Assembly (NCBI GenBank): GCA_029881215.1
Contig: JAOUNA010000007.1
Location: forward strand, 1-40,908
Direction: 5' to 3'
Source: Myxococcales bacterium
Lineage (GTDB): Bacteria > Myxococcota_A > UBA9160 > SMWR01
Length of the DNA stretch: 40,908 nt
Below the pieces are notes generated by a model. It was not told the origin of the DNA, searched no databases, and saw nothing but the letters and a program-made list of their open reading frames with translations. A program made the position numbers and the translations under genes. The first letter of the stretch is position 1, and the number at the start of each line of letters is the position of its first letter. Below, piece after piece: positions 2,072-21,059 of this stretch.

Positions 2072-3733
2072 TCAGAGCGGCTCGGTAATCGGAATGTCCT
2101 CCCACATGAGCTGCAGGAAGGTTCCGATGAAGAATGACATGAACGTCATGATGAAGATGGCGGCCGGGAAGGTGTAGAACGGCTCGAAGCCCACGATTCT
2201 CGGCAGCTCGCCCAGGAAGGGAGGCAGCCACTCGCGCAGCTGTTCGACCGAGGCGGGTGCGGGTCCGCCGGACCAGTTCCGCGCGGCCATGAAGCTTCCC
2301 AGCATGCCGGTAAAGAGCAATCCGATCCCCGCGGCCTGCAGCACTCCGAGCAGGAAGATCTGACGCGCGCGCCAGAAGGCGAGCTTCGTGTCGCCGAGCC
2401 GGTACTGGACTTCCACGTACAGGTACAGGAGCGTGGTGGCTCCCAGCACCACCGCGATGCTGACGAGCGTGAACCAGGGTTGGTTGGCCAGGCTCCAGAC
2501 TTCGTCGATGAAGAAGATGGGCAGATAGCCCACGGTGATGCCGGCGGTGATCCGGGGAACCGAGGTGTGGAAGAAGGTCAGGTCCCGGCGCCACAAGAAG
2601 CGGTAGAGAAGGAACCAGAGCACGGCAATGTCCGCGGCCACGAGCTCGGCCGCGCAGAGCGCGTCGAAGAGCAGGGGCGCGCGCTCGTAGAAGAAGGCGC
2701 CCGTCACGAACGGCGCGAACAGGCAAGCGAGTGCGAGCACGTAATTCCGCGTGCGGTGCCTCGAGAGCGTCCGGTCCGCATCGACCACCTCGTTGCGCAG
2801 GTTGTCCGCGTGTCGGATGACCGCGGCTGCGTGATGAATGTCGTACTGCCGCAGGAACCACTCCTCGAGCTTCGCCAGCAGACGCAGGCAGTTCCGATTC
2901 CCGATCCGCCTGAGGAAGGGGGTCAGCTCTCGGCCGCGCGACACGCGCGTGCATCCGGGCCGGCTGATCGCCCTGCGCACCTCCTCTTCGCGCGTGCCAA
3001 AAGGCGATCCCTCCATCTCGAAGGCACCGTTCGCCTCGTCGAGGCAGCCTTCTTCGATCCAGCGATAGAAGGCGCGCTCCGCGAGCCGCACGGTGCAGCG
3101 ATTCACCGTGTCGACATCGCCGCTCTCCAGCGTGTGGAAGAAACCGCTCTCCGACAGATCGTCGGACGGATCGATCGGATCCACGGTCCCCGCGACGTAA
3201 GCCGCGACGTAGCCGGGATCGACGCGCCGCTCGAGCAGCGCCAGCAGAACGCGGTGCGCGATCTTGCGCAGGTGCAGGACGGCGAGCCGCAAGCCCGGTC
3301 GATCGTCACCCAGGCGCTCGCCCGCAAAGCGGATCACGATCTGCGCCAGGATCGCCACCTCCTCGCAGACGCGCGCCAGGCGCTCGCGGGAGAGCCGCGG
3401 CTCGCGCTCGAGTCGGTCGATCAGCTTCTCCAGGTAGCGCGGAATCGCGATCACCAGTCGGGAGACGAGAACCTGCGCGTCCCGGCGCTGCGCCTCCGGA
3501 GAGAGGAGGCTGGGCTTGCGCGACAGGTCCACGAGCTGCAGGTAGATCTCCGCCGGATCGTGGCGATCGGCGCGAAAGGAGAAGGTCTCGGGGAACAGTC
3601 GCTTGAAGCCGGCGCCGCGATCGCACTCGAAGCGGATCTCGCGCGCATGGAATGCGTAGGTGAAGCGCAGCGTGAGCTTGAGGCGCTCGACCCGCAGCTC
3701 GAGACGATCCAGCGTCGGAGAAGGTTGATTCAC
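2072..3733 (-). CDS. Six-helix membrane protein of unknown function, coupled to a response regulator
   Basis: I do not recognise this 553-residue protein. Residues 1-325 are soluble, charged and probably mostly helical. The C-terminal part has about six hydrophobic helices, near 331-349, 361-380, 394-412, 421-440, 459-478 and 520-542. No enzyme motif is evident. The chosen GTG at 3733 lies eight bases after the stop of the response regulator. A TTG at 3745 overlapping that stop is an alternative. The reading frame continues open far upstream, but that part only shadows the regulator gene. The tight spacing implies joint translation, so a role as membrane effector or sensor for the regulator is the best inference. 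Confidence 0.72.
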   Translation of the reverse strand: MNQPSPTLDRLELRVERLKLTLRFTYAFHAREIRFECDRGAGFKRLFPETFSFRADRHDPAEIYLQLVDLSRKPSLLSPEAQRRDAQVLVSRLVIAIPRYLEKLIDRLEREPRLSRERLARVCEEVAILAQIVIRFAGERLGDDRPGLRLAVLHLRKIAHRVLLALLERRVDPGYVAAYVAGTVDPIDPSDDLSESGFFHTLESGDVDTVNRCTVRLAERAFYRWIEEGCLDEANGAFEMEGSPFGTREEEVRRAISRPGCTRVSRGRELTPFLRRIGNRNCLRLLAKLEEWFLRQYDIHHAAAVIRHADNLRNEVVDADRTLSRHRTRNYVLALACLFAPFVTGAFFYERAPLLFDALCAAELVAADIAVLWFLLYRFLWRRDLTFFHTSVPRITAGITVGYLPIFFIDEVWSLANQPWFTLVSIAVVLGATTLLYLYVEVQYRLGDTKLAFWRARQIFLLGVLQAAGIGLLFTGMLGSFMAARNWSGGPAPASVEQLREWLPPFLGELPRIVGFEPFYTFPAAIFIMTFMSFFIGTFLQLMWEDIPITEPL

Positions 3734-12229: not shown

Positions 12230-12246
12230 TTGGCACAGGGCTTGCC
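12230..12246 (+). promoter_or_regulatory. Sigma-54 (-24/-12) promoter
   Basis: TTGGCACAGGGCTTGCC matches the sigma-54 consensus TTGGCACR-N4-TTGCW at every position except the last. The GG (12232-12233) and GC (12244-12245) have the required spacing. The expected transcription start is near 12257. That lies after an upstream in-frame ATG at 12252, so it supports translation starting at 12288. Confidence 0.78.
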
Positions 12247-12287: not shown

Positions 12288-14231
12288 ATGTCCCGCCTAT
12301 GGATCGTCCATCGCGACCAGCGCCAGCGCTCCGCTCTGGCCCGTCTCGCTGCAGCTTCGGAGGACGCCGTGCTCGGCGCCCCGGGCGAGCCTCGCTTCGA
12401 CGCGGCCCCGCCGGCCGAGGTGATCCTGCTCGGTCTGGGCGACGATTGGGAGCTCGAGCTCGAGTACGCGCACAGCGTCCGGCGCCGAGCTCGCGACGCG
12501 CACTGGATCCTGATCGGCGCGCCGCGCAGCGGCGACGCCGCGCTGCGCTGCTTCGACACGCTGCGCGCCGAATTTCTCGCCTATCCCCCGACGCCGGACG
12601 TGCTGCGCGAGCGCATTCGCGCTGCGCGGCGCCCCGCCGCGCCGACGCTCTCCCAGCGTGCGGGCCGCGAGGCCGTTGCCGAGCGCTTCTCGCGCTGGTT
12701 CTCCGATCTCGAGCTGCCGGAGCTGCTGCGCGCCCTCGATCCCCGACTCGCCGACGTCACGCTGCTGATCCGCGGAGAGCCGGGCACGGGGCGCAGCCTG
12801 CTCGCCCAATACGTGCACCTCTTCGGCGGAACGGCCGCGGGCGTCTTCGTGCGCGTGCCGTGCGCCGAAGCCACGCGCGCGGACGAAATCCTCGCAGCGA
12901 TCGAGCAGGCCGGAAGCCGCGCGGCGACGCCCGCCGCGCTCGCGATCTGCCTCGAGAATGTGGAGCGCCTCGCGCCGTCGATACAGGCACTCGTCTGCGA
13001 CTGGATCGAGCTGGGGCTCCCGCCGGGCGTGGTGCGCGCGCCGCGCTTGCGCTGGATGGGCACCGGCGGCGACGCAGACGCGCAGCTCCAGCCGGATGCG
13101 GGGCTGTGCCGAGCGCTCTCCGAGCTCAGCATCCGATTGCCTCCGCTGCGCGAGCGACCCCATCTGATCGACGTGGTCACCCGGGCGGTCACGCGCGCCT
13201 GGTGCGAGACGCGCCGCGAGCGATCCCGGCGCTTCGGCGAGGATGCGCTGGCGGTGATGGAGGAATATCCCTGGCCGGGGAATCTGCGCGAGCTCGAGGC
13301 CCTCGTGGTGCAGACCCTCGCCTGCAGCACCTCGGATCCGGTTCGCTCGGACGATCTGCAGTGCAATGGGCGGGCGTTCTCCCCGCTCCTGCCGAGCGAG
13401 ATCGGCGGGCGCGAGCACGACGATTCTTCGGCCGAGCGCGCCGTTGCCAGCGCCTCCGCCGAGGGCATGGCGCGACACGAAATTGCGATTCGTCGGGTGG
13501 AGGATGTGAGCGCCGCAGCGCCGCGGCCGAGCGCTGCGCCCGAGGCCGCGGCTGCGCAGCGCGCGGCGCCGGTCGACGAGATCTCGCTCGCGCGCCTCGT
13601 GGCGTCGCTCTCCCACGAGGTGCGCAATCCGCTCGCCACCCTCCGCACCTTCGCGGAGCTGCTGCCCGAGCGCTTCGCGGACCCCGAGTTCCGCAACCGC
13701 TTCGCGAAGGTGGTGAGTCAGGATGTCGAGCGCATCGACGCGCTCGTCGAGCAGCTCGGCCGGCTCTCCGATCTCCAGGCACCCAAGCACGAGACCGTGA
13801 ACCTCTCCGACCTGCTCGAGCAGTTGCTCGACGCGCGCGAGGAGACGATCCGGAACAGGCGTTTGCTCGTGCTGAAGGAGCTCGACGCGGAGCGGTCGAT
13901 GGTCGTCGCAGATCGCGAGCAGCTGCGCTTTGCCTTCGACGCGCTGCTCGGAAGGTCGCTCGAGCTGGTTCCCGAGCGCGGCGACGTCTACCTCGCGTCC
14001 CGTTACCACAACGGAGAGCCGGCGCACCCGCCGTCCGTGCGCGTGCTGCTGCGCTTCCACGACCCGGAGAGCGTGGGCTCCGCCAGCCCGGCGCCGGGTC
14101 TCTCCGTCGCGGAGAACTCCCTCGAGCTCACGGTCGCGGAGCTCGTCATTCGCGCCCAGGGCGGGCGCTTCGCCCTCACCAGCAGCGAGGGCAAGGAGAC
14201 GGTCATCGTCGTGGATCTCCCGGCGCGCTGA
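12288..14231 (+). CDS. Composite pseudo-receiver / pseudo-AAA+ / histidine-kinase-like protein
   Basis: Three degenerate signalling domains are fused in 647 residues. Residues 1-115 follow the receiver fold, but the aspartate site reads LLGLGDD and the lysine site AYPPTP. Residues 135-345 resemble a sigma-54 activator AAA+ domain. A Walker A-like GEPGTGRS (163-170), SIRLPPLRER and YPWPGNLREL are kept. The ESELFGHE/GAFTGA region is missing and Walker B reads CLENVE. After an alanine-rich linker comes an intact H-box, SLSHEVRNPLATL with His443. The region where the ATP-binding domain should be lacks the N-box asparagine and the G-boxes, though it ends in a kinase-like ETVIVVDLP. It probably works as a phosphotransfer or scaffold protein rather than as a kinase or an ATPase. 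The ATG at 12288 fits the sigma-54 start site. It precedes the NtrC-type gene by 60 bases. Confidence 0.85.
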   Translation: MSRLWIVHRDQRQRSALARLAAASEDAVLGAPGEPRFDAAPPAEVILLGLGDDWELELEYAHSVRRRARDAHWILIGAPRSGDAALRCFDTLRAEFLAYPPTPDVLRERIRAARRPAAPTLSQRAGREAVAERFSRWFSDLELPELLRALDPRLADVTLLIRGEPGTGRSLLAQYVHLFGGTAAGVFVRVPCAEATRADEILAAIEQAGSRAATPAALAICLENVERLAPSIQALVCDWIELGLPPGVVRAPRLRWMGTGGDADAQLQPDAGLCRALSELSIRLPPLRERPHLIDVVTRAVTRAWCETRRERSRRFGEDALAVMEEYPWPGNLRELEALVVQTLACSTSDPVRSDDLQCNGRAFSPLLPSEIGGREHDDSSAERAVASASAEGMARHEIAIRRVEDVSAAAPRPSAAPEAAAAQRAAPVDEISLARLVASLSHEVRNPLATLRTFAELLPERFADPEFRNRFAKVVSQDVERIDALVEQLGRLSDLQAPKHETVNLSDLLEQLLDAREETIRNRRLLVLKELDAERSMVVADREQLRFAFDALLGRSLELVPERGDVYLASRYHNGEPAHPPSVRVLLRFHDPESVGSASPAPGLSVAENSLELTVAELVIRAQGGRFALTSSEGKETVIVVDLPAR

Positions 14232-14291: not shown

Positions 14292-15662
<1,371 letters not shown>

Positions 15663-15709: not shown

Positions 15710-15725
15710 TGTTCGGATCCGAACA
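15710..15725. promoter_or_regulatory. Palindrome 1, TGTTCG-N4-CGAACA (candidate activator site)
   Basis: TGTTCGGATCCGAACA is a perfect 16-base palindrome in the 280-base gap before the HD-GYP gene. Its centre is about 200 bases upstream of the predicted sigma-54 start site. A second site with the same half-sites and the same four-base centre lies exactly 80 bases downstream. Distant palindromes are the usual binding sites of NtrC-type activators, one of which is encoded immediately upstream. Confidence 0.6.
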
Positions 15726-15787
15726 GTTCGACAAACGCTGTTTGAGAGCAGCGGGATAGAATCCTGCTTGCTTCCTTCGATCGCCCG

Positions 15788-15807
15788 GGTGTTCGAAATC
15801 GAACACC
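15788..15807. promoter_or_regulatory. Palindrome 2, TGTTCG-N4-CGAACA (candidate activator site)
   Basis: GGTGTTCGAAATCGAACACC has nine-base inverted arms around a central AA. Its core TGTTCG-N4-CGAACA (15790-15805) repeats the pattern of the site at 15710. It lies about 120 bases upstream of the predicted sigma-54 start site, within the usual range for enhancer-like sites. Confidence 0.6.
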
Positions 15808-15891
15808 TCTCGCTGCGCTGCTCTCCCGCCTCCAGAGAAAAAAGTTTTGTGATCTCGGACACATAGCGTGGCGTGGCGAGAGGGCACCGGG

Positions 15892-15908
15892 GCGGCACGC
15901 CTCTTGCG
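15892..15908 (+). promoter_or_regulatory. Sigma-54 (-24/-12) promoter of the HD-GYP regulator gene
   Basis: GCGGCACGCCTCTTGCG fits TTGGCACG-N4-TTGCW with GGCACG and TTGC intact and correctly spaced. GG is at 15894-15895 and GC at 15906-15907. Transcription would begin near 15919, leaving about 24 bases of leader containing the ribosome-binding site AGGTGG before the ATG at 15943. Confidence 0.72.
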
Positions 15909-15942: not shown

Positions 15943-17118
15943 ATGGCAACCAGGAAGCCGCGCGTGACCGTCCTGATCGTCGACGACGAACGCGGACCCC
16001 GGGATTCGCTGCGCATGCTGCTGGCATCCAGCTACGAAGTCCTCACGGCGGGCAGCGGCGCGCAGGCTCTCGACATCCTGCGCACCACCCCGGTGGATGT
16101 GGTGACGCTCGACCTGAACATGCCGGGCATCGACGGACAGACGCTGATGCGCACCATGCACCACGAGTGCCCCCACGTGGAGATCATCGTGATCACCGGC
16201 TGCGCCACGATTGCCAGCGCCCAGGAGGGGATTCGCAACGGCATCTGCGACTACCTGCAGAAGCCCTTCGACGTGGTCCAGGTGACCGCCGCCGTGCGGC
16301 GGGCCGTGCAGCGGGGCAGCGCGCGGCGCGGGCTCGTGGCGTTTCTCGAGGAGCTCGGTGCGGTGGTCGGGCGCGATCGCGACACGCAGCGCATCCTGAC
16401 GGAAATCCAGCGCAGCCAGAAGATGCGCGGGAAGCTCAGCGGCCTGCTCGACGCGCACGGTCACCTCGAGCTGGCACAGGTGGAGAAGGACGCCGACTGC
16501 ACCCTCCAGTTCCTGGAGGTGCTGGCGGAGACCATCGAGCTGAACGACAGCGGCATGCGCGGCCACGCGCGCCGCGTTGCCTTCTACGCCGGAATGATCG
16601 CGGACCGCATGAATCTCTCCCTCGAGGAGCAGGAGCGCGTGCGGATCGCCGCCTTCCTGCACGACCTCGGCAAGGTGGGCGTGCCCACGGATCTGATGTT
16701 GCGGCCGTCGTCCCTCAGCGCCGCCGAGCGCGCCCTCGTGGAGCGCCATCCCGTGATCGGCGCGCGCATGCTCGCGCCGCTGGATCTTCCCGGATCGATC
16801 GCTGAGGCGATCCATCACCACCACGAGTGGTGGGACGGCAGCGGCTATCCCGACGGCATCGCCGGCGACGAGATCCCGCTCATCTCCCGCATCATCGGTG
16901 TGGCGGACGCCTTCGATGCGATGAGCAGCGATCGACCCTACCGGCCGGCGCTGTCACGGCCGGTCGTGGTCGACGAGCTCCGGCGCTTCACCGGACGCCA
17001 GTTCGATCCGGACATCGCCAAGGAGTTCCTGGCGATCCTCGAAACGGCCGTCGAGGACCTGGATCTGACGCTGCTCGCCGACGCCTCCGGCGGCCCGGCG
17101 CAGGCGCCCCCGGGCTAG
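15943..17118 (+). CDS. Response regulator with HD-GYP domain (c-di-GMP phosphodiesterase)
   Basis: A receiver (residues 5-122; Asp57 in TLDLNMPG, Lys107) is joined by a helical linker to an HD-GYP domain (about 190-375). The HD pair is His240-Asp241 in FLHDLGKVGVP. The metal- and substrate-binding HHHHEWWDGSGYP segment (291-303) and the following DAFDAMSSDRPYR are intact. It should therefore break down cyclic di-GMP under phosphorylation control. The ATG at 15943 has AGGTGG four bases upstream and fits the sigma-54 start site. An upstream in-frame GTG or ATG would fall before or at that start. The length of 391 residues is typical of RpfG-like proteins. It lies 65 bases before tatB but probably belongs functionally with the regulators upstream. 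Confidence 0.93.
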   Translation: MATRKPRVTVLIVDDERGPRDSLRMLLASSYEVLTAGSGAQALDILRTTPVDVVTLDLNMPGIDGQTLMRTMHHECPHVEIIVITGCATIASAQEGIRNGICDYLQKPFDVVQVTAAVRRAVQRGSARRGLVAFLEELGAVVGRDRDTQRILTEIQRSQKMRGKLSGLLDAHGHLELAQVEKDADCTLQFLEVLAETIELNDSGMRGHARRVAFYAGMIADRMNLSLEEQERVRIAAFLHDLGKVGVPTDLMLRPSSLSAAERALVERHPVIGARMLAPLDLPGSIAEAIHHHHEWWDGSGYPDGIAGDEIPLISRIIGVADAFDAMSSDRPYRPALSRPVVVDELRRFTGRQFDPDIAKEFLAILETAVEDLDLTLLADASGGPAQAPPG

Positions 17119-17183: not shown

Positions 17184-17537
17184 ATGTTCGGCATTGGGAT
17201 GACGGAGCTTCTGGTGATCTTCGTGATCGGGCTGCTGGTGCTCGGTCCGAAGCGGCTGCCGGATCTCGCCCGCTCGCTCGGGCGCAGCCTGGCCGAGTTC
17301 CGGCGCGCGTCCAACGATCTGCGCCGCGAGTTCATGGACGTGGCGGAAGACGTGCGCGTCGAGCCGCTCGAGCTGCCGAAGCCGCGCCCGCCCCAGAAGA
17401 AGCAGGCCGAAGTCGAGGCGACCGGGGCCGCGACCGCCGCAGCGCCGCAGGCACAGCCCGACACGGACGGGACCGCGGAGGCGCGCGAGACCCGCCCGCC
17501 CGGCGCAGCTCCCTCCGACGCGACGCACAATGGATGA
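17184..17537 (+). CDS. tatB: Sec-independent (Tat) translocase protein TatA/TatB
   Basis: This is a single-span inner-membrane subunit of the twin-arginine translocase, which exports folded proteins. It starts [20 protein letters not shown], followed by the hinge [16 protein letters not shown] and an amphipathic helix, then a polar proline- and alanine-rich tail to residue 117. The glutamate at position 8 and the length favour TatB over TatA, but the two are not always separable by sequence. Its last eight bases overlap tatC. No separate tatA is in the window, so this protein might serve both roles, or tatA lies elsewhere. Confidence 0.9.
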
Positions 17538-18276
17538 CGCGCGGCTTCCCATCGCCGAGCACCTCGCGGAGCTGCGCTCGCGCATCTTTCGCATCCTGAT
17601 CGCGTGGGCGCTGGGCTGCGCGCTCGCCTGGAACTTCAGCGAGCAGGTCTTCGGGCTCCTGATCGCACCGGCGGTGGACGCGCTCGGCGCCGGGCACACC
17701 CTGCAGGCCATCGCGCCCACCGAGGTCTTCTTCACCTACCTCAAGTGTGCCGTGCTGGCCGGCTTCGTCATCGCGCTGCCCGTGGTCTTCTGGCAGATCT
17801 GGGCGTTCGTCGCGCCCGGGCTCTACCCGAACGAGCGCAGCGCGATCCTGCCCTTCGTGCTGGTCTCGACCCTGCTCTTCGCCGGCGGCGCCATCTTCGG
17901 CTACACGCAGGTCTTTCCCCTGATGTTCTCCTTCTTCAGCAGCTTCGACAGCGCGTTCGTCGAGTCGGCCTGGACGATGCGCGAGGTCTTCGGCCTGACC
18001 ACGCGCCTGTTTCTCGCCTTCGGCGTGGCCTTCGAGCTGCCGGTCTTCGTCTTCTTCCTCTCGGTCGCGGGGATCGTGGATGCACCCACGCTGCTGCGCA
18101 GCACGCCCTACGCGGTGCTCGGGGTCTTCGTGGCGGCGGCCCTGCTCACCCCGCCCGACTGGGTGAGCCAGGTCTTCCTCGCCGTTCCGATGGTGGCGCT
18201 CTACTTGGTGGGTGTCGGGGTGGCGTACCTGTTCGGCGGCTCGCGGGCGCGCGCCAAGACCCGGAGCGCGGTGTAG
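17530..18276 (+). CDS. tatC: Twin-arginine translocase subunit TatC
   Basis: The 248-residue multispan protein recognises twin-arginine signal peptides. It has the N-terminal [15 protein letters not shown] motif, the [12 protein letters not shown] segment, [12 protein letters not shown] with the conserved family Glu, and a [12 protein letters not shown]-like helix containing the conserved glutamate. Six membrane spans can be traced. The start at 17530 overlaps the tatB stop by eight bases, indicating coupled translation. The gene ends 41 bases before the convergent carboxylase gene, with no clear terminator in between. Confidence 0.95.
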
Positions 18277-18317: not shown

Positions 18318-21059
18318 TCAGATCAGCGCGAGCGTGGCCTCGCGCATGCGCGCCCGGCGCGTCGCTTCCGATTCCTTCACCGCTCGCTCGTCGGGCTCGA
18401 TGTGGAACAGCGGCTGACCCTTGGCGACGACGCAGCCCTCCCGGCCGGCCATCAGCTTCTCGCGAATCGTGCCCGAGAACGGCGCGCGCACCTTGTTGAA
18501 CATCTTCATCACTTCGATGATGAACAGCGGCTGCCCCGCTTCGAAGTGGTCGCCCACCTCGATCAGCTCCGGCAGGTGTGGGGCCTCGCGCGCGTAGAAC
18601 GTGCCGCCCATCGGACTCACGATCTCGTCGGCCCCCGCCTGGGGCGCGGGCGCGAGAGCCTTGACGCAACCGGCGGCAACCGCCGGATCGAGGAACGCGC
18701 GCGGGAACACCACGCACAGCGAATCGTCCACCTCGATGTCGCTGAAGCCCGAGAGCACGCCCAGGCGCGGCAGCAGCAGCAGCAGATCGAGGCCAACCTG
18801 GAAGCCGCGGTGCGCCGCCTGACAGGCGTCCCAGTGCGCGTCGTCCACGCCCGGAATGCGCTCTCCCCGCGCTCCCTCGAGCAGCTCGCGCACCTCGCGC
18901 CAGCCGGCCACGCCGGTGAGCTCGTTCACGCGCTCATAGAAATCGTGCGCTGCGCGCAGGATCTCCTCGTCGTGATCCCAGATGCGCTCGCAGGGCAGAT
19001 TGCCACTCGCGTCGTCGAGATGCAGATAGTGATACAGCTCCCACAGGAAGTGGACGGGGTTGGCGGCAAAGTGGACGCCGTCCTCGTCCCGCTCCCAGAG
19101 CACACCGTCGAAGTGTCCGAGGAATCCCGCAAGCTTGTGGGGGTCCGCGAGCAGGCGCTCGATAGGGCGCAGCAGCAGCGTGCGCTTGCAGGCGAGCGCC
19201 GCGCGCGCACCGGCATCCGGCTGGCGCTCGCGCAACGCGGTCATCGCCACCTCGAGATCGACGTCTTCCGCGGCGCGCGCGAGCGCACCCACCGCGGGCA
19301 GGTAGGCCGCCATGAAGCGCGTATCGGGCTTTGCCAGCGGCGCCTTGCCGAGGATCCAGTGGATGAGTCCGTAGTGCACCGAGAGATTGGTCTGCAGATC
19401 TTCGCCGCGCAGCTCCGTGCGCCGCAGGATCTCCGCCATCCGCGCGTAGCTGTCCCGGCGGCTCGCGCCGTCCGTCACCACCAGCGCGACGTTCGAGTCG
19501 TAGGCGCCGGCCAGCTTGTAGGGCACGAAGTCACCGGTGTCGGGATTGCGCGCGCCGATGCCCTGGTCGTACCGCACTTCGCCTTCGATGGGAGGCGACC
19601 AGCTCTGGATCATGCCCCCCGCGTGGGGCTGCAGCGCGGCATTGGTCGCGTTGATGCGCACCTCGACCGCGGAGACGGCGCGCGGCACGCGGCGCGGCTC
19701 GGGCAGACGCGCCCCGTGCACGGCCAGCAGCAGCATCGCCTCGATCAGGTGATCCACGACGAACGCCTCGCCGGGCTCTTCGGGATTCTCGAAGGCGAGG
19801 CCGTAGACGAGCTCGGTGACCACGTGCTCCACCTGGATGCGCGTGTTCATCTCCATGAAGTAGTGATCGAAGCCCGAGACGATGCATTCGAAGGTGGAGA
19901 CGCTGTCGAGCCCCGTCGCGGCACCGAAGCGCGCGGCCTCGCTCTCCATGCGCTCGAGCGTGGCGCGGTCGCCGCGCAGGATCTCGGCGGCCTGGCCCTC
20001 CGCCCCGCCGATCTCGGCCTCCAGCAGCTCGCGCGTGAGGGAGATCTCGAGGAGCTTCTGCTCGTGCATCTGCACCGAGCAGTCCCGGCCGCCGAGCGCG
20101 ATGCACCAGCTGCCGTTTCCGATCAGCTGAATCTCGTTGTGGCGCGTGCTCTCGATGTTCCGCTCGATCAGGAAGTTTCGATTCGAGCCGGGTGCGAGCA
20201 CCTTCGATTCGGCCAGAACGTCCATGACGGCAGCGCTCACGTCCTCCAGTCTCGACACCACCCGTTGTCCCTTGCCGCCGCCTCCGCCGATGTGCTTGAA
20301 GCGGATGCGGCTGCCGGGATGTTCGCGCCAGATCTCCCCGCAGATCGACTGCGCCTCCGCCTGCAGCGACGCGACGTCGATCAGCTCGACGGCGTTCGCG
20401 TAGCCCAGCTGGAGCAGGGCCTCCGCGCTCTCCACCAGCGGGAGCGTCTCGTCCGGGGAGAAATCGAGCCCGTGGTGGATGGCGAGCTTCTCGAGCCCCT
20501 TGCGATTCTCCACGCGCCGCGCCAGCGCGCGCGCCGAGACATCGTCCACGCCCGGGATCACCGCGTTGCCCAGGCGGCGAGCCAGCTTCTTGGCCTCGTC
20601 CTTGGCACCCGCGCGGCGCACGACCCGCGACGACGGACCCACGAAACCGATGCCGGCCGCCTCGAGCGCCTCGATGAATTCCGCGTCTTCGGCCATGAAG
20701 CCGTAGCCCGCGAACACGTGCGTGTACCCGTGCGAGACGGCAATCTCCACGATCTCTGCGATGCGCGCCTGCTTCTCCTCCTGCCCAGCGCCGCTGTAAT
20801 CGTGGACTCGATGCACGTTCTGGGGAGAACGCAGGCCGCGCAGCTCGGGCGCGACACAGCGCGGATAGGTGATGGAGTCCTTCTCGGACAGCAGCATTCC
20901 GTATTCGCGAATGCCGATCTCGTCGAAGACCTCGAACGCCTCCTGGCGCACCGGACCCCGGCACACGACCAGGCACTTGACCGACGCCAGCGAGAGCGAG
21001 CGCAGCCAGGCAGACTCGCATGCGTCGAAACGAAGCCGCTCGCGGCTCTGGTCGCGCAC
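18318..21059 (-). CDS. Divergent biotin carboxylase fused to biotin carboxyl carrier domain
   Basis: This is the large subunit of an acyl-CoA carboxylase. ATP, bicarbonate and biotin give carboxybiotin, which the neighbouring carboxyltransferase uses. Of 913 residues, about 25-590 form the biotin carboxylase/ATP-grasp part, with the glycine-rich loop GGGGGKG (258-264) and catalytic MEMNTRIQVEH (402-412). The canonical N-terminal ANRGEIA motif is absent. Residues 590-790 are an unrecognised helical linker. The C-terminal carrier domain has the biotinyl lysine Lys852 in EVMKM. The start is GTG at 21059, whose G is the last base of the TAG stop of the carboxyltransferase gene, with GGAG eight bases upstream. 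The long open frame beyond that start is a shadow. Confidence 0.87.
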   Translation of the reverse strand: MRDQSRERLRFDACESAWLRSLSLASVKCLVVCRGPVRQEAFEVFDEIGIREYGMLLSEKDSITYPRCVAPELRGLRSPQNVHRVHDYSGAGQEEKQARIAEIVEIAVSHGYTHVFAGYGFMAEDAEFIEALEAAGIGFVGPSSRVVRRAGAKDEAKKLARRLGNAVIPGVDDVSARALARRVENRKGLEKLAIHHGLDFSPDETLPLVESAEALLQLGYANAVELIDVASLQAEAQSICGEIWREHPGSRIRFKHIGGGGGKGQRVVSRLEDVSAAVMDVLAESKVLAPGSNRNFLIERNIESTRHNEIQLIGNGSWCIALGGRDCSVQMHEQKLLEISLTRELLEAEIGGAEGQAAEILRGDRATLERMESEAARFGAATGLDSVSTFECIVSGFDHYFMEMNTRIQVEHVVTELVYGLAFENPEEPGEAFVVDHLIEAMLLLAVHGARLPEPRRVPRAVSAVEVRINATNAALQPHAGGMIQSWSPPIEGEVRYDQGIGARNPDTGDFVPYKLAGAYDSNVALVVTDGASRRDSYARMAEILRRTELRGEDLQTNLSVHYGLIHWILGKAPLAKPDTRFMAAYLPAVGALARAAEDVDLEVAMTALRERQPDAGARAALACKRTLLLRPIERLLADPHKLAGFLGHFDGVLWERDEDGVHFAANPVHFLWELYHYLHLDDASGNLPCERIWDHDEEILRAAHDFYERVNELTGVAGWREVRELLEGARGERIPGVDDAHWDACQAAHRGFQVGLDLLLLLPRLGVLSGFSDIEVDDSLCVVFPRAFLDPAVAAGCVKALAPAPQAGADEIVSPMGGTFYAREAPHLPELIEVGDHFEAGQPLFIIEVMKMFNKVRAPFSGTIREKLMAGREGCVVAKGQPLFHIEPDERAVKESEATRRARMREATLALI

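Follow-up and report, generated by a model that had tools for sequence, protein, structure and literature searches.

A putative twin enhancer for an NtrC-type regulator upstream of a sigma-54 promoter in a Myxococcales genome

What is the function of two similar palindromes that lie between the gene for an NtrC-type response regulator and the sigma-54 promoter of the gene that follows it? The question is raised by a stretch of 40,908 nucleotides from a Myxococcales bacterium (GenBank assembly GCA_029881215.1, contig JAOUNA010000007.1, positions 1 to 40,908 of the forward strand), here called the window. A sequence-only reading of this DNA had predicted that the palindromic motif is the recognition site of the regulator encoded at 14292-15662, and the pattern of conservation described below supports that prediction. 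We consider that the two palindromes probably (a probability of roughly 0.87) constitute a twin enhancer, or pair of upstream activating sequences, for the adjacent regulator.

The palindromes and their genomic setting

The features of the locus, in window coordinates, are the following.

12231..12245, plus strand: second sigma-54 promoter, TGGCACAGGGCTTGC, before the partner gene; not preceded by palindromic sites
12288..14231, plus strand: partner gene, upstream of the regulator; AAA+/AAA-lid/HisKA protein with degenerate ATP-binding motifs
14292..15662, plus strand: NtrC-type response regulator with receiver, sigma-54 AAA+, lid and Fis-type HTH (from Pfam, orthologues and the HTH)
15710..15725, no strand: putative enhancer site 1 (distal), TGTTCGGATCCGAACA, a perfect palindrome of 8+8 bp and putative regulator site
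15746..15758, plus strand: degenerate IHF-like box 1, GAGCAGCGGGATA, three mismatches to WATCARNNNNTTR; offset from site 1 conserved
15790..15805, no strand: putative enhancer site 2 (proximal), TGTTCGAAATCGAACA, with 9-bp arms GGTGTTCGA-AA-TCGAACACC
15853..15865, plus strand: degenerate IHF-like box 2, TCTCGGACACATA, three mismatches, preceded by an A-tract; offset from the promoter GG conserved
15893..15907, plus strand: predicted sigma-54 promoter, CGGCACGCCTCTTGC (GG-N10-GC), from its sequence and its conservation in orthologous loci
15943..17118, plus strand: target gene, a response regulator with an HD-GYP domain (Pfam), predicted c-di-GMP phosphodiesterase
17184..17537, plus strand: tatA, the next gene after HD-GYP (Pfam and synteny)
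17530..18276, plus strand: tatC, an open reading frame named by synteny and similarity, with no family search

Site 1 reads TGTTCG-GATC-CGAACA and site 2 TGTTCG-AAAT-CGAACA. The shared 6-bp half-sites are identical, as had been claimed, but the four-base centre, which had been described as the same in both, differs. The two palindromes occupy the intergenic region between the regulator's stop (15662) and the HD-GYP start (15943), and site 1 begins 47 nt after the end of the stop codon, within the 50 bases that had been given. Behind the pair the expected sigma-54 promoter is indeed found, with its GG at 15894-5 and its GC at 15906-7; the transcription start predicted from it, at about 15919, puts the palindrome centres at about -202 and -122, in agreement with the earlier estimate of about 200 and 120 bases.

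In the whole 3.43 Mb genome, TGTTCGNNNNCGAACA has two matches, which are the two palindromes described here, and the reversed control pattern has none. The looser form GTTCSN4SGAAC has 15 matches: two are these palindromes, two are parS-like, and none of the others in this genome is set before a sigma-54 promoter as the window's pair is. The own-genome regulon was judged by pattern searches alone, and in this 89% complete genome they revealed no second target at this stringency. With 45.6 bits the window's pair is above chance expectation, since the best of 2200 mononucleotide-shuffled regions reaches 15.6 bits.

These counts bear on whether the palindromes might instead serve as a partition site of the parS type, or as a LexA-type operator, with no relation to the sigma-54 promoter. 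The resemblance to parS is real, for the parS-like sites GTTCCACGTGGAAC of these genomes have the same outer half-sites; however, their ACGT centre occurs in none of the listed enhancer sites (GATC and AAAT in the window), they are clustered elsewhere, on another contig, and the enhancer sites keep a fixed position with respect to the -24/-12 promoter. Nor does the motif recur across the genome as a LexA-type or other unrelated operator would, since just two exact copies make no regulon-wide operator. We regard this explanation as highly improbable. Two parS-like GTTCCACGTGGAAC lie 36 bp apart on contig 275 of genome G000 (20561-20610; L043, L044), where they can mislead motif scans.

The regulator has the domain architecture of an NtrC-type enhancer-binding protein (PF00158, 2.4e-70; PF00072, 8.9e-28; PF02954, 6.7e-11), and its genome encodes rpoN (PF04552, 210 bits). 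Its sigma-54 contact loop is GAFTDA, which we take as equivalent to GAFTGA; among 43 orthologues the loop is GAFTDA in 26 and GAFTGA in 13, the threonine being kept and the second glycine variable. None of the NCBIfam equivalogs passes its cut-off for this protein, the best being AtoC (449.9 vs 714), followed by NtrC (427.2 vs 558.6) and ZraR (364.6 vs 760); the closest named record is from a Deltaproteobacteria MAG (MB1D_Bin_1), with 70% identity. The best NCBIfam match of the HD-GYP target, the NosR family, is likewise under its cut-off.

Conservation of the pair among relatives and its absence with the regulator

Of the 60 related genomes, over 40, belonging to the same order as the window's, encode an orthologue of the regulator (56-70% identity, paralogues about 52% or less). 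Their loci were chosen by the protein and not by the site. A YGTTCS-N4-SGAACR pair stands before the -24/-12 promoter of an HD-GYP gene, a PilZ gene or both at 39 of these 44 regulator loci, from nine families, and the comparison of orthologous loci that had been suggested thus shows the pair following the regulator and its target promoter through all nine. When scored with a matrix built from the same loci, so that the scores partly restate the pattern, 38 of 42 loci score above every one of 2200 shuffled regions; in G023, which was left unscored, the pair was recognised by eye. The promoter behind orthologous regulators has the form TGGCAY-N5-TTG, and the combined site-plus-promoter pattern is found in 31 of 79 genomes, as opposed to one for the reversed control.

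In family f4 an extra gene follows the regulator, and the pair is still with the HD-GYP promoter, some 1.5-2.4 kb from the regulator. The -12 element of that promoter is TTGT, TTGA or TTGG in this family (L078-L085) and not TTGC, the sites and the -24 element being kept. Several loci of family f5 have a single recognisable site, which we count against the enhancer-pair explanation. Three genomes of the same family (L100, L101, L102) have an additional, third site, which lies 28-31 bp upstream of site 1.

Conservation of this kind also bears on the idea that the palindromes act as RNA hairpins, for example as the terminator of the regulator transcript. Site 1 is self-complementary and lies only 47 nt past the stop codon, as a terminator might; but no T-run follows either palindrome, there are two copies with a conserved spacing, which persist in family f4 despite a different gene between regulator and sites, and the matrix shows the half-sites to be conserved as sequence, beyond mere pairing. 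We give a hairpin function very little credence.

The usual gene order among the relatives is partner gene, regulator, sites and promoter, HD-GYP, PilZ, tatA and tatC; in the window's genome PilZ is absent from its usual place between HD-GYP and tatA. In G056, G070 and G067 a PilZ gene is first or next behind the promoter, in place of HD-GYP, and at regulator loci without HD-GYP the palindrome pair remains with the PilZ gene. Since it is HD-GYP or PilZ that lies behind the promoter, the switch appears to be reserved for c-di-GMP genes. The sequence-only reading had overlooked the PilZ and tat genes that normally come after HD-GYP, as well as the differing centres, the 69-bp spacing norm and the IHF-like boxes considered below.

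In six loci without the regulator, a single contig carries both the partner gene and tatA (G002, G003, G007, G011, G012, G042). No site pair is present in any of the six, where the best-scoring candidate reaches 5.7 bits, and the association of site absence with regulator loss has a Fisher p of 2.9e-5, a value that ignores kinship. No HD-GYP gene was found in four of the six, so that only the two that keep it, G007 and G012, are informative. In G012, GGGCACGGGACTTGC is retained before a truncated HD-GYP gene and the palindrome is absent.

It could be argued that the sites serve some other enhancer-binding protein or transcription factor, and that their nearness to the regulator is a coincidence of operon order. 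The NtrC family is large, cross-talk is possible within it, and this genome alone has about 28 regulator-like regions. Yet the sites track the regulator orthologues through nine families and are missing where the regulator has been lost. Moreover, the orthologues' HTH is unlike that of all 12 paralogues examined: the recognition helix TRRxLKLKMD is common to all 43 orthologues examined, with little variation, and occurs in none of the 12 close paralogues. We consider service to another activator unlikely, and prefer the adjacent regulator as the protein that recognises the pair.

Two further sigma-54 promoters that are conserved in the same genomes were used as negative controls, that of a TPR gene and that of the partner gene. 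Any site at all was found at 2 of 31 TPR-gene promoters, one of them weak, and the partner-gene promoters (about 30) yielded no pairs and one weak single site. The TPR protein gene itself (G000 contig 282:5891-6361, L245) is conserved in the order, and its sigma-54 promoter is present in almost every genome. With a promoter that is near-universal and a site in 2 of 31 genomes (G031, G034), it was rejected as a second member of the regulon. Loose pairs outside the order were set aside as mostly parS-like or chance, and a match at an AmtB promoter in G040 was attributed to chance. On contig 12 of G021 (about 3567-3650, L336), away from the regulator locus, another pair of sites is accompanied by a sigma-54 promoter; a search for its target gene identified none.

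The partner-gene promoter is kept in 27 of 30 relatives, including genomes without the regulator; having no palindromes, it may be read as part of a sigma-54 cascade under another activator. The partner protein looks like a double pseudoenzyme. Its sigma-54-type AAA+ domain is degenerate, the Walker lysine being replaced by arginine in most orthologues (L292-L321), and none of the 28 aligned proteins has the customary N-box or DxGxG motif in the ATPase part of its HisKA module. The HisKA histidine is kept in most relatives and lost in G003 and G011, both of which lack the regulator. The degenerate ATP-binding domain counts against our preferred explanation insofar as this involves phosphorylation of the regulator.

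As we picture the twin enhancer, one dimer of the regulator would bind each 16-bp palindrome through its Fis-type HTH. Activation, presumably by phosphorylation, would cause the receiver domain to permit assembly of the AAA+ ring. Bending of the DNA, for which IHF would be responsible in the relatives and the A-tract perhaps in part in the window's genome, would then loop the ring to the sigma-54 RNA polymerase at 15893-15907, and the promoter would open. Because the promoter would drive a gene for an HD-GYP response regulator, the switch would alter c-di-GMP; in most relatives this gene is followed by one for a PilZ receptor of c-di-GMP.

IHF-like boxes and the spacing of the sites

The spacing of 80 bp between the starts of the two sites, given as exact in the sequence-only reading, is indeed so. 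It amounts, however, to 7.6 turns of 10.5 bp, no whole number, and it is the exception among the relatives, where the norm is about 69 bp: the spacing is 67-71 bp in 31 of the 34 good loci and 80 bp in three (G000, G038, G064), with none between. At 6.6 turns, 69 bp is not a whole number either. From site 2 to the promoter GG the distance is 101-107, 114-118 or 128 bp in the same 34 loci.

With site 1 and the -24 GG as anchors of the alignment, matches to WATCARNNNNTTR fall at two fixed positions. The first, box 1, starts 18-20 nt beyond site 1, with at most two mismatches in 18 of 34 loci and at most three in 28; box 2 starts 41-43 nt before the GG, sitting roughly 36 bp ahead of the -24 element, and the corresponding counts are 16 and 28. 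In 3-nt windows off these peaks the median number of loci with at most two mismatches is 0. If the 22 genera are weighted equally, box 1 is present in 12.5 genera against 0.9 in the rotation null (maximum 4.3) and box 2 in 10.5 against 0.4 (maximum 2.8). Each box has an A/T run 10-12 nt upstream. At the TPR promoters there is a weaker tendency to a box in nearly the same place as box 2. The boxes, which are strong in relatives, are weak in the window, and with three mismatches in each the action of IHF at the window's own promoter is uncertain; its genome does encode IHF-alpha and IHF-beta (ihfA/ihfB), both above the NCBIfam cut-offs.

In the 69-bp arrangement box 1 is at the midpoint between the palindromes. 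In the loci examined, 35 or 46 bp separate it from site 2, and the distance from site 2 to box 2 clusters near 62, 72.5 and 83.5 bp, values one turn apart; G029, with 57.5 bp and a box 2 that is unrecognisable, is the exception. A circular statistic is no sharper at 10.5 bp than at neighbouring periods, and the helical-turn reading therefore rests on the discrete clusters. In effect, the window's site 2 has been shifted one turn towards the promoter.

These distances suggest a more elaborate arrangement, to whose three parts taken jointly we would give a little less than an even chance. An IHF bend at the exact midpoint would set two regulator dimers face to face and so nucleate the hexamer; a second IHF bend would deliver that hexamer to the sigma-54 polymerase; and site 2 would, in evolution, change its distance from either IHF box only by whole helical turns. 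If this were true, IHF would help to build the activator, a role beyond looping. The layout site-IHF-site-IHF-promoter, with its helical-turn stepping, could be rebuilt in E. coli to probe the part of IHF in the assembly of an enhancer-binding protein.

Comparison with known systems

The analysis links an activator that had no name of its own, and that is conserved through a mostly uncultured order, with a DNA motif, a recognition helix and the operon it would control, and the nature of the target gene makes the switch a transcriptional input to c-di-GMP signalling. The components and their logic, an enhancer for a bacterial enhancer-binding protein together with IHF and sigma-54, are already known. 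What looks like a variant is the IHF-like box in a central position between the two enhancer sites, kept over an order; we found no description of it in the literature searched, outside of which lie most subscription papers.

NtrC, ZraR, AtoC, NifA and CbrB share with this system a REC-AAA+-Fis HTH protein whose gene is beside its target, and the enhancer-binding proteins of the NtrC family also share palindromes 100-200 bp upstream of a -24/-12 promoter; the motif YGTTCS-N4-SGAACR and the helix TRRxLKLKMD, in contrast, belong to this order. The partition site parS, bound by ParB, is alike in its outer half-sites TGTTC...GAACA, but it has the core TGTTCC-ACGT-GGAACA and is clustered, whereas the enhancer sites never have an ACGT centre and are linked in position to a sigma-54 promoter.

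The orp operons of Desulfovibrio vulgaris, controlled by DVU2106, IHF and sigma-54, have IHF sites between the site of the enhancer-binding protein and the promoter (PMC3897727). They resemble the present loci in their palindromic activator sites and in the box, here IHF-like, before the sigma-54 promoter, and we used the same IHF consensus; unlike them, the loci described here have an extra IHF-like box midway between two activator sites. At the CbrB promoters of Pseudomonas putida, non-palindromic subsites 20-25 bp apart lie on one face of the helix, and IHF lies between these subsites and the sigma-N promoter (PMC6296734). Several activator subsites at a defined spacing, with IHF or an IHF-like box before the promoter, are common to both systems, but here the sites are palindromic and about 69 bp apart, with an IHF-like box at their midpoint.
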